From IMG/VR virus record IMGVR_UViG_3300045118_000332, positions 1 through 23,592 of that record: a DNA stretch of 23,592 bases. One strand, given 5' to 3'. A program made the position numbers and the translations under genes. The notes under the pieces were generated by a model, which saw only the letters and a program-made list of their open reading frames with translations, was not told the origin of the DNA and did not search any database. This stretch comes from a virus. This document shows positions 10,843-16,464 of the stretch, piece by piece. The first letter of the stretch is position 1, and each line of letters opens with the position of its first letter.

Positions 10843-13299
10843 TTAATTAAAAACAGGATACCCCGTCATACCATCAAGCCTCATCTCAAATATTTCTAAA
10901 GAGTCGTCATCGTCTTCTTTTATCTGTCTTCCTTTTATTTCCTCAAAATCTGGGTCAACCGATAGAAAAGAAGCCATCACGAAAGCATCAGCCCTGTCTG
11001 GTGAAGGCAGTCCTCTTTTCTTCATGTCCTCTTTAGGTTCTAATGTCATCTTCCCTGTCTGCGTCTGGAACTTATACTTTCTCGAAGCAAGCTGGCTTAT
11101 CAATGTATCATCCTCATACACCCTTATCTTGCCCTGCTCTATATATCCGCAAACTTTAAAATATGCCTCAGTGCCCAGGTTATGGAATATTCCTTCCGTT
11201 GCTTTACCGCCAAATTTAAATGGCATTAGTTCAAACTTGTATCCCTGGGCATTGAGGATGGGTAACTGCTCCTCCAAATGGTCTATTATGCCAGCACCCA
11301 TAGCACCTTCATCTATCACAACATAATCTGGCTTGAGTTTCTTGATGAGATTTATAATCCTGCCTTGTGTTTCCGTAGTGGCTTTACCAGATACTCCTTC
11401 GCTCAAAACCACCGCCCCTCCATTCATAAACACAAAAGCAGTCTCATCAGCCCCAAATCTTGCGGGGTCGACACCTAACACCCTCCAACCATTTGCAGGT
11501 TCCGCTTTAATGGCTTCTCTTAAAGCAGATACCGATATTAGACTATTAACCGATTGTTTAGGAAATTGTCCGAGAACCCTGGCCTCGAATAATGGCGAGC
11601 CCTTCCCCCATTTCTCTTCCTTCTCCTTAACCCAGCGATATGTGACCATGCCTGGGATAAGCTCTTTCCTACCTTTAACATTAGGGGAGTCATAACAGCT
11701 AAACATGAATTTGCAGAAATTTTTATCCTGAAATGAATCATAAAACTTTCCCTCCGCACTCAACGGGTTCCCAGCTAAATATAACTTCGAGTTCTCCGTA
11801 ACAAGCAGAGAGTCAACCTCTTCATATATCACATCTTCTATTGCCTGGGCTTCCGTCATCAGCACAAGAACATTCTTCGCGTGAAACCCCTGAAACTTAC
11901 CTACTGACTGATTGGTCTCTTTTGTGGTAAATCCTATCGCATACCAATTCTCTCCCACCTGCAACTCGTTGTTAAGCATTCTTCCACCCAAAGGAACTTT
12001 AGAATTCGCCCACAACTTCGATATTTCCCCCCAGATAACCTTTTGGACTTGGCGTTCTGAATTGCCCGACCAATGATAAACTCCTTTTCTTCTCACAAGA
12101 ACAACGCCGCTCGGAACAGTCACACAATAAACATAATCATCATAAGGCTGTCTATACCAGTAGGATTTTACACTATAGGGATGTTTTTTAGCATCTTTTA
12201 AGAATGAAACTATATTTTCAGTGCAAGGCCTACTATTTATTATTCTTCCATCTTGTAAGATTGCTGAACGGGACTTTAATTCCCTTGAACTCAAATTTGT
12301 AACATATCCCGCCTTTAATCCTATCTCCTGTAAATCATCAGCCATTTCCTTGTCATCATAGAATCTTATCCTGTCTGTTTCTCCAAAACTGCCATCTCCA
12401 TACATAAATCCTTTAATAAAAGCTCGAAGTTTATTCTTCTTGGCGTTCTTTATGAACTGCGGTATTTTCTTGTGCCCTTCAAATATAAAGTTATCGTAGA
12501 ACCATTTACTTATTTCCTTGCTGTAAATCGTTAAATTATATGCACCATCTTTACGGTCGTATTTACTTATAGGCTTCCCATATACCTTAAGAAGATTTTC
12601 CGCATAATCCACATAATGGGATTGCGTCAAACTTACATCGCATCTCCTGTGATTCCCGCCATATCTTACATAACCATCGGCAAACCAGAAACCCCATAGC
12701 TCGTAATGCTTCTCGGTAAAATCATCATCGTCTCCATTCCATACAACTTCTCTCGAAAATCTTTCCGTTGTAAGGCCAAATAACTTTAAAGCTTCTGTCT
12801 TGCGGAAATTTAAGCCAAAAAGATTTTTAGTGTAGCATTTGTGGTTAGGAGTTACCAAAAAATCTACATCCCTCGATTTATAGCCTATCATTTCTCCATT
12901 CACTTTATATTTATGAAATTCGAGGGGCTTTATGAATTTAAGCTCCCCATTCATCAAACTGGCAACCTTCTCGTTCCCCTGTAATCCTTTCAATAGCTTC
13001 CACCCATTCTCTGTCAGTATTTCCGTTTCCTTGTCGAAGCACGGGGCAGTAGTTATCACGATAGAGCCAGGGAACGAGTAAAGAAACCATAGCACTACGA
13101 CTGCACCCAGGAAATCCTTCCCCATCGCATGGCCTGAACTTATCGTTATCTTGTCGTGTTCTACAAGACTGCGAAGTATCTCCTCCTGGCCACTCCATAA
13201 GCTTACACCTAAAATGTTTTTTGCCCACCACACTGGGTCTTTTTGAGCCCTGCAAAATACTTCCAACTCCTCTCCGTCTGTAAGGTCTCTTATATCCAC
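10843..13299 (-). CDS. terL: Terminase large subunit precursor with intein
   Basis: An 818-residue precursor; removing the intein (87-413) leaves a 491-residue terminase. ATPase motifs: Walker A SSGHAMGKD (54-62), the adenine-side motif VITTAP|SERQ split by the intein, and Walker B NVLVLMTEAQA (476-486) with catalytic Glu483. Nuclease (RNase H-like) acidic residues are at Asp611 (VLGVDPARFGADE), Asp663 (YVVIDEGAMG) and Asp768 (PSPDRADAF). The protein cuts concatemeric DNA and drives it through the portal. Start is GTG at 13299 with AAAAGGG upstream, 3 bases after the preceding stop. The Walker A Lys is followed by Asp rather than Thr/Ser, as I recall for a GHxxGKD subgroup of terminases, so it is not a defect in itself. 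Splicing is needed for function since the intein interrupts the ATPase core. Confidence 0.9.
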   Translation of the reverse strand: MDIRDLTDGEELEVFCRAQKDPVWWAKNILGVSLWSGQEEILRSLVEHDKITISSGHAMGKDFLGAVVVLWFLYSFPGSIVITTAPCFDKETEILTENGWKLLKGLQGNEKVASLMNGELKFIKPLEFHKYKVNGEMIGYKSRDVDFLVTPNHKCYTKNLFGLNFRKTEALKLFGLTTERFSREVVWNGDDDDFTEKHYELWGFWFADGYVRYGGNHRRCDVSLTQSHYVDYAENLLKVYGKPISKYDRKDGAYNLTIYSKEISKWFYDNFIFEGHKKIPQFIKNAKKNKLRAFIKGFMYGDGSFGETDRIRFYDDKEMADDLQEIGLKAGYVTNLSSRELKSRSAILQDGRIINSRPCTENIVSFLKDAKKHPYSVKSYWYRQPYDDYVYCVTVPSGVVLVRRKGVYHWSGNSERQVQKVIWGEISKLWANSKVPLGGRMLNNELQVGENWYAIGFTTKETNQSVGKFQGFHAKNVLVLMTEAQAIEDVIYEEVDSLLVTENSKLYLAGNPLSAEGKFYDSFQDKNFCKFMFSCYDSPNVKGRKELIPGMVTYRWVKEKEEKWGKGSPLFEARVLGQFPKQSVNSLISVSALREAIKAEPANGWRVLGVDPARFGADETAFVFMNGGAVVLSEGVSGKATTETQGRIINLIKKLKPDYVVIDEGAMGAGIIDHLEEQLPILNAQGYKFELMPFKFGGKATEGIFHNLGTEAYFKVCGYIEQGKIRVYEDDTLISQLASRKYKFQTQTGKMTLEPKEDMKKRGLPSPDRADAFVMASFLSVDPDFEEIKGRQIKEDDDDSLEIFEMRLDGMTGYPVFN
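12061..13041 (-). mobile_element. Intein with LAGLIDADG endonuclease inside terL
   Basis: Residues 87-413 of the precursor (327 aa). Block A is CFDKETEILTENGW, starting with the nucleophile Cys87. Block B is FLVTPNHKCY (147-156) with the TxxH-type His. The endonuclease has two dodecapeptide motifs, LWGFWFADGY (about 200-209) and LRAFIKGFMYGDGSFG (291-306). Block F is DDYVYCVTVPSGVVLVRR (387-404) and the end is GVYHWSGN|S, with Asn413 and Ser414 as the +1 extein nucleophile. The penultimate residue is Gly, not the usual His; the His is four residues upstream of the terminal Asn. The insertion site, TTAP^S, is a conserved ATPase-motif position. Boundaries were placed so the flanking terminase sequence rejoins as VITTAPSERQV. 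Confidence 0.9.
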
Positions 13300-15859: not shown

Positions 15860-16072
15860 ATGTCAAAAGCATACGAGGTATCGGAATATATCAATAGTAA
15901 AGGCGAAAAACATCCGATATTAAAGATAGGGGTAAATGATAAAGGTTTCGCTAAAATTCAGTTTGGTATAGAAAAAGCAAAGGCACTACTTGAAGCTCCA
16001 AATTTAATTGACGAAATTAAGAATTTCGTTGCCCACGCACTTGAAACGGCGGCGTTAAAATATAGGGTATAA
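15860..16072 (+). CDS. Small hypothetical protein preceding the origin
   Basis: 70 residues, ATG with AAAGGGGGTGATATA upstream. The fold looks like two or three beta strands (EVSEYINSKGEKHPILKIGVNDKGFAKIQFG) followed by helices (IEKAKALLEAPNLIDEIKNFVAHALE). A strong terminator follows. No family was recognised; the size and beta-then-helix pattern are common in small single-stranded DNA or protein-binding phage products, but this is only a resemblance. Confidence 0.6.
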   Translation: MSKAYEVSEYINSKGEKHPILKIGVNDKGFAKIQFGIEKAKALLEAPNLIDEIKNFVAHALETAALKYRV

Positions 16073-16084
16073 TCCCTATAAAAT

Positions 16085-16134
16085 AAGGCAGGGAATATTA
16101 TTATAATATATCTCTGCCTTTTTTATTATTTAAG
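16085..16134 (+). terminator. Intrinsic terminator
   Basis: AAGGCAG pairs with CTGCCTT (16085-16091 and 16124-16130) over a long AT-rich inner stem, followed by TTTT (a run of six T including the stem). It lies just after the stop at 16072 and before the origin-like region, so it would separate transcription of the small genes from the origin. Confidence 0.75.
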
Positions 16135-16284
16135 ATACCTTCTTAAATACTATTCTTCTAAATATATAAAATAGTAGTAGTAGAGGATGTGGATAACCTC
16201 TATTTTAGTAGATTTTTCGCATAAATATACCAAATAGTCCTGTTGATAACCTGTGGATAAGTTGTGGATAACTTGTGGACGATA
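16131..16284. other. Probable replication origin: DnaA boxes, TAG triplets, AT-rich DNA
   Basis: Reading left to right: an AT-rich stretch (16131-16171); four TAG triplets (16172-16183); a 4-base spacer AGGA; a consensus DnaA box TGTGGATAA (16188-16196); then four boxes at 16241 (TGTTGATAA), 16252 (TGTGGATAA), 16263 (TGTGGATAA) and 16274 (TGTGGACGA, degenerate). The last four start exactly 11 bases apart in one orientation, which puts them on one helical face. On the other strand the order is box, short spacer, CTACTACTACTA, AT-rich, matching the DnaA-box, DnaA-trio and unwinding element layout described for B. subtilis oriC. Host DnaA loading onto phage DNA is therefore a reasonable inference; a DnaA-controlled promoter is the alternative. 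Confidence 0.7.
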
Positions 16285-16299
16285 AAGGAGGTGATAGTA

Positions 16300-16464
16300 A
16301 TGGTATCCGCCGAGTGGTTGAAGGAAGTAGCAAAACAAGTAGAAAACATTGAAAAAGAGATAAAAAAAGCCGTATATTCTATGCCGATTATTGCGGAAGG
16401 TATGGCTAAACAGATGAATTTACTAAATCTTGATGAAATGAGGAAGATAAGACCAGCAGTATAA
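16300..16464 (+). CDS. 54-residue helical protein after the origin
   Basis: ATG 16300 with AAAGGAGGTGATAGTA upstream; the longer frame from 16264 runs through the DnaA-box repeats and is rejected. The sequence (WLKEVAKQVENIEKEIKKAVYSM... MAKQMNLLNLDEMRKIRPAV) is an amphipathic helix with alternating Lys/Glu, likely a coiled coil. Its ribosome site begins within a few bases of the last repeat. No family was recognised. Confidence 0.55.
   Translation: MVSAEWLKEVAKQVENIEKEIKKAVYSMPIIAEGMAKQMNLLNLDEMRKIRPAV

Follow-up and report, generated by a model that had tools for sequence, protein, structure and literature searches.

A likely DnaA-dependent replication origin with the unwinding layout of bacterial oriC in a phage genome fragment

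Genomic context

The window analyzed here is a complete linear virus record of 23,592 bases, which represents an incomplete phage genome. Its left arm, on the − strand, encodes the terminase large subunit, an SU10-type portal and the major head protein, while the right arm, on the + strand, contains short ORFs together with genes for a CobS-like AAA ATPase and its VWA partner and for two nucleases, one Cas4/RecB-like and the other RusA-like. The terminase large subunit gene (10843-13299) contains an in-frame LAGLIDADG intein-like insert at roughly residues 90-410. Between 17585 and 20157, the CobS-like AAA ATPase is followed by a peptidase-like ORF and the VWA-domain protein. This module, whose function in phages is unclear, is related through its AAA part to proteins from cyanophages and from large staphylococcal phages.

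Close relatives were sought through the AAA protein and the portal, and none were found. Relatives identified by capsid alignment share 44% identity or less, and an alignment of the terminase with the named capsid relatives was dropped as poor (18-23% identity).

Organization of the intergenic element

The element under study occupies a 227-base intergenic gap (16073-16299) between ORFs 15860-16072 and 16300-16464, the second longest among the gaps listed for the right arm. Its features are collected in Table 1.

Table 1. Features in and around the intergenic element of the 23,592-base window
Feature	Position	Strand	Basis
Hairpin ending in a T run	16078-16126		Strand folding, whole-region z -3.3
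AT-rich stretch, 84% AT, proposed DNA unwinding element	16127-16171		Composition
Four DnaA-trio motifs, TAGTAGTAGTAG (TAG x4 on +, i.e. 3'-GAT-5')	16172-16183	+	Sequence; consensus from PMC8287927, PMC6669920
4-base spacer, AGGA (TCCT on −)	16184-16187		Sequence
Trio-adjoining DnaA box, perfect TGTGGATAA (TTATCCACA on −)	16188-16196	+	Sequence match
44-base spacer between trio-proximal box and distal boxes	16197-16240		Sequence
Distal DnaA box 1, TGTTGATAA, 1 mismatch	16241-16249	+	Sequence match
Distal DnaA box 2, perfect TGTGGATAA	16252-16260	+	Sequence match
Distal DnaA box 3, perfect TGTGGATAA	16263-16271	+	Sequence match
Weak fourth repeat, TGTGGACGA, 2 mismatches, doubtful box	16274-16282	+	Sequence
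Short ORF (54 aa) adjoining the boxes on the right, with a strong ribosome-binding site	16300-16464	+	ORF list

The hairpin is predicted from folding and sequence to be the terminator of the short upstream ORF, a likely assignment; it is absent from the listing of a consensus terminator scan. The AT-rich stretch ranks within the 15 most AT-rich of the 23,548 45-base intervals in the record. All boxes lie on the + strand and point in one direction, and the last four repeats are spaced by exactly 11 bases. The record holds three perfect DnaA boxes, all of them inside the element and none elsewhere. The whole element is about 160 bases long and lacks reverse-oriented boxes. A family search with the short ORF to its right gave no match.

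A first-pass annotation, made without database searches, had proposed much of this layout, and its coordinates for the triplets and boxes held. The separate consensus box that it placed at 16188, beside four TAG triplets (16172-16183), is confirmed and is a perfect match. Its four repeats 11 bases apart in one orientation held in spacing and only partly as boxes, the fourth (16274) being weak. The AT-rich stretch it mentioned also held, and can now be positioned precisely, beyond the triplets as seen from the box, as the order of a bacterial basal unwinding system (BUS) requires.

The arrangement is beyond what chance produces, as shown by simulation. Among 600 first-order Markov simulated sequences of 23.6 kb each, none contained three boxes at 11-base steps (0/600) and none contained (TAG)4 beside a box (0/600). 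The maximum number of same-direction boxes per 100 bases in the simulations was three, reached once, versus four in the real element. The number of (TAG)4-N0-16-box arrangements expected by chance is 2e-7 to 2e-6. On a trio-box score, the window reached 13 and the runner-up 6 in 0.97 Mb comprising 80 capsid-relative loci, five named-phage records and the record itself.

Correspondence with the bacterial basal unwinding system

Programmatic identification of a BUS requires a DnaA box, a spacer of up to 16 bases and at least three trios (PMC8287927), and the phage element satisfies each of these criteria. The trio-adjoining box at 16188 is perfect where up to two mismatches are allowed, and the box-trio spacer of 4 bases falls within the limit of 16. 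The requirement for three or more consecutive trios with a middle A and the consensus 3'-GAT-5', read away from the box, is met by the four TAG triplets, whose orientation is the same as that of the trios in bacterial records. The likeness to the order of the B. subtilis oriC, also claimed in the first pass, therefore held: order and orientation match the BUS (PMC8287927, PMC6669920), and the bacterial box register is matched in addition.

This register was derived from a scan of bacterial genomes for the pattern trio-box-gap-box, which returned at least 116 records, 80 of which were analyzed. The scan fixed the gap at 30-60 bases, and distance classes beyond that range are invisible to it. 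Most of the 80 records carry a DnaA-type motif within the fetched stretch, and the nearest boxes lie 4 and/or 12-13 bases from the last TAG. The first distal box lies at 55-57 bases in 30 records and at 64-69 bases in 44, which together account for 74/80, with almost none between. The trio-to-distal-box distance is thus quantised in these records, which span several phyla, into classes about one helical turn apart.

In the phage element, the boxes lie 4, 57, 68 and 79 bases from the last TAG. These distances meet the criterion of box geometry as in bacterial records of the same architecture, and therefore the register is shared and not the parts alone. That the phage element has both the bacterial parts and the measured register is shown from sequence. 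The register agrees with work in B. subtilis (PMC6669920), where the orientation of the box next to the trios matters and the distal box is subject to helical phasing. The phage element has a single proximal box, versus the tandem pair that is the commonest bacterial state. One criterion is not met, namely that of a chromosomal oriC located beside dnaA: the record carries terminase, portal and capsid genes and has no DnaA match.

Recurrence among viral contigs

A database of 2.9 million viral contigs was scanned for the same design. A strict scan, for a box preceded by three TAG, gave 73 stretches versus 31 in the reverse order, and at least four boxes within 300 bases were present in 29/73 right-order versus 0/31 wrong-order matches. 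A relaxed scan (trio-box-gap-box) found 29 stretches versus 2 for a pattern with the trio on the wrong side and 1 for a second scrambled pattern. The origin regions are mostly unlike in sequence, with one set of three near-copies among the 33 compared. The bacterial register is matched by the distal boxes of 19/31 non-duplicate phage cases (binomial p about 1e-7).

A terminase was found in 17/36 carrier records, and the four carriers fetched whole encode portal, capsid, endolysin, tail or recombination genes. The carriers are real tailed phages, several of them plainly so. In each of the four whole carriers, the element is the sole dense cluster of DnaA boxes; unlike an operator, it has no constant direction with respect to the genes from one carrier to another. 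The same design is present in dozens of other metagenomic phages, and this recurrence suggests that some phages borrow the host initiator to copy their DNA.

The element is absent from the capsid relatives of the window (80 viral loci and five named-phage records), some of which encode their own replisome organizer or DnaB plus a polymerase. Dulem virus 39, one gene of which is related to a carrier (L016), encodes a replisome organizer, and no BUS was found in the 47.8 kb of it examined.

Replication genes in carrier phages

Checking the ORFs against protein families revealed no initiator, helicase or polymerase gene in the 23.6-kb fragment, and no dnaA match was found in the record. The DnaA ATPase domain was found in 0/48 viral records, the present one included. 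DNA polymerase A is likewise missing from all 48 carriers, versus 10/44 control viral records (Fisher p 3e-4); among records shorter than 65 kb, the counts are 0/46 versus 5/34 (p 0.01). The controls are chance matches of the scans rather than a matched random sample, and some are perhaps mutually related. Of the 33 families in a 45.6-kb carrier (G024), 25 were listed, and none of these is a polymerase, helicase or initiator. An apparent scarcity of DnaB in carriers was dropped as a candidate feature, the counts (3/36 versus 6/44 controls over the cut-off) showing no clear difference. A phage-plasmid lifestyle was also considered and found no support, with no ParA-type match over the cut-off and no integrase (0/36) in the carrier records.

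One carrier (G035) encodes a stand-alone protein of ~76 aa with the DnaA DNA-binding domain (PF08299, E 7.5e-18); the gene lies 98-328 bases to the right of the trio-box element, with terminase-like genes nearby. It is possible that this small protein competes for, or marks, DnaA boxes.

The first-pass annotation had also stated that no phage initiator gene is seen and that this fits use of host DnaA, and had proposed, as a third point, checking for a GC-skew shift at 16.1-16.3 kb in the complete genome. The first statement holds for the sequenced part only; the record is a linear fragment, and a phage initiator may therefore lie outside it. The second is supported as a reading, but DnaA use and origin activity are inferred and not shown. 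On the third, the skew of the fragment switches at about 14.5-14.9 kb, where gene direction changes, and not at 16.2 kb, and therefore provides no independent mark of the element. As skew tracks gene direction, it was rejected as an origin marker.

A proposed DnaA-dependent phage origin

We propose that the element is a DnaA-dependent phage replication origin with the BUS layout of oriC. We consider this likely (probability about 0.73). The motifs, their order, orientation and register, and their recurrence are shown; origin activity, DnaA binding and unwinding are inferred, and the host is unassigned. In the proposed mechanism, host DnaA-ATP would bind the box at 16188 together with the distal array; the boxes are present in the sequence and their occupancy is inferred. 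The distal complex may then support the proximal complex, as inferred from the separated box group of B. subtilis incC. Starting at the proximal box, a DnaA filament would extend along one strand over its four 3'-GAT-5' triplets and pull open the adjoining AT-rich stretch, a step for which the motifs and register are shown and the unwinding is inferred. Finally, a host helicase, or a phage helicase encoded beyond the fragment, would be loaded at the opened stretch.

The main uncertainty is whether DnaA acts alone or with an added phage protein encoded outside the fragment. Counting against an origin are the absence of the element from the capsid relatives, some of which have replisome genes of their own, and the presence of only one proximal box. 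A bolder reading is that there is a scattered class of tailed phages with a complete oriC-type DnaA origin and no initiator of their own, in which the host initiator and helicase loader start replication and whose plan was acquired or evolved many times. We regard this extension as about as likely as not.

Alternative explanations

The element could instead be a DnaA decoy, whose boxes titrate host DnaA and thereby stop or desynchronise initiation on the host chromosome, in the manner of datA and without origin activity. Named phages do carry DnaA-box arrays without three-trio runs, for which a decoy or other role is plausible. A decoy, however, would need no trios, AT-rich neighbor or fixed trio-box spacing, whereas many phages preserve the trio order and the register, and we consider this explanation unlikely. 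Also improbable is an assisted origin, in which the main work falls to a phage initiator encoded outside the fragment, or to an unrecognized small protein within it, with DnaA in a helping role like the one it has at the P1 plasmid origin and at iteron plasmids. In its favor are the incompleteness of the record, the capsid relatives with a replisome organizer or DnaB plus polymerase, and the precedent of plasmid origins where DnaA assists a plasmid Rep protein (PMC10797057). Against it, the surroundings of the boxes contain no iteron array of direct repeats, and nothing initiator-like turned up in the ORFs checked or among the families listed for G024 (25 of 33). The criterion for an iteron/Rep origin is accordingly not met, with no iteron family around the element and no Rep-like gene in the fragment, the genome being incomplete.

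Two further explanations are much weaker. Transcriptional control, in which host DnaA would repress or activate the short ORF at 16300 along with the operon that follows, gains some support from the position of the array, which ends 17 bases ahead of a start codon that has a strong ribosome-binding site. A promoter scan, however, listed no promoter-like site inside the array, other carriers have the cluster in either direction with respect to their genes, and trios are not known to have a role in operators; we regard this as very unlikely. Equally remote is the possibility that the element has no function in the phage, being either a bacterial or plasmid origin fragment acquired not long ago or an artifact of contig misassembly. 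The oriC-like sequence and the capsid relatives lacking the element would be consistent with such an event, but the element is flanked by short phage-like ORFs, terminase, portal and capsid genes lie on the same contig with no dnaA match, and many other phage contigs carry the element amid dissimilar surrounding sequence.

Novelty and implications

DnaA-trio origins are already known as a kind. No description of a BUS in a phage was found in the open-license literature searched (DnaA-trio with bacteriophage, and oriC-like phage origins, with selected matches opened), so that use of this design as a phage origin with the oriC register is likely new, with the caveat that origin activity is inferred. 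Well-studied phages, lambda among them, supply an initiator of their own, and DnaA has no more than a helping role at plasmids. If the DnaA-dependent reading is correct, a recurring phage origin with the full code of trios, boxes and spacing would indicate that the oriC unwinding code is portable, and phage copying would be tied to host DnaA activity. The carriers would also provide a natural library of minimal DnaA origins, some only ~160 bases long, in which the importance of individual distances could be tested. Because DNA polymerase A is missing from all 48 carriers, their dependence on host machinery is open to direct test.

Comparison with known systems

DnaA boxes also occur in named phages in other arrangements. 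A BLAST search of the array against named phages led to stretches that, where opened, held arrays without three-trio runs. DnaA-box-like repeats without such a run were observed in the early region of the T7-like Escherichia phage nasanit (L224 1501-1603) and in the predicted terminal repeat of Klebsiella phage Sugarland (L230 1508-1664). These T7-like and Sugarlandvirus arrays resemble the present element in their same-direction boxes, ~11-12 bases apart in nasanit, and differ from it in having no run of three or more TAG trios beside a box in the stretches checked. These arrays show that DnaA boxes also occur in phages in settings that are perhaps not origins. Matches to Listeria phage LM 4-11-1 and to a fecal 'Bacteriophage sp.' lay in sequence that looks like oriC; these were rejected as candidates, since both may be bacterial contigs filed as phage. 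The matching stretches of the phage-filed records OR846725.1 (L226) and MT835545.1 (L227) resemble bacterial oriC, a sign of possible bacterial contigs in the phage collection.

Iteron plasmid and P1 plasmid origins (PMC10797057) are likewise extrachromosomal and place DnaA boxes beside an AT-rich region. There, a replicon-encoded Rep binds iterons and DnaA only assists, whereas the phage element shows neither iterons nor Rep. The lambda ori (PMC3985674, PMC3640518, PMC10797057) is a phage origin whose replication involves host proteins; unlike the present fragment, lambda encodes the initiator O, which binds four iterons, and the helicase recruiter P.

Two parallels are bacterial. In the C. 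difficile oriC2 (PMC7561715), the trio strand CTACTACTATTACTACTA, comparable to CTACTACTACTA in the phage, lies beside boxes and an unwinding element; that origin differs in being chromosomal and bipartite, with a second box cluster across dnaA. Compared with bacterial BUSs, the phage element sits in a phage genome with no dnaA gene nearby and is compact, with its one proximal box, ~160 bases in all and boxes in one orientation only. With the BUS of B. subtilis incC (PMC6669920, PMC8287927), it shares the box orientation, the 4-base spacer, the TAG trios, the AT-rich flank, and same-direction distal boxes ~11 bases apart in a register of 57 and 68 bases.
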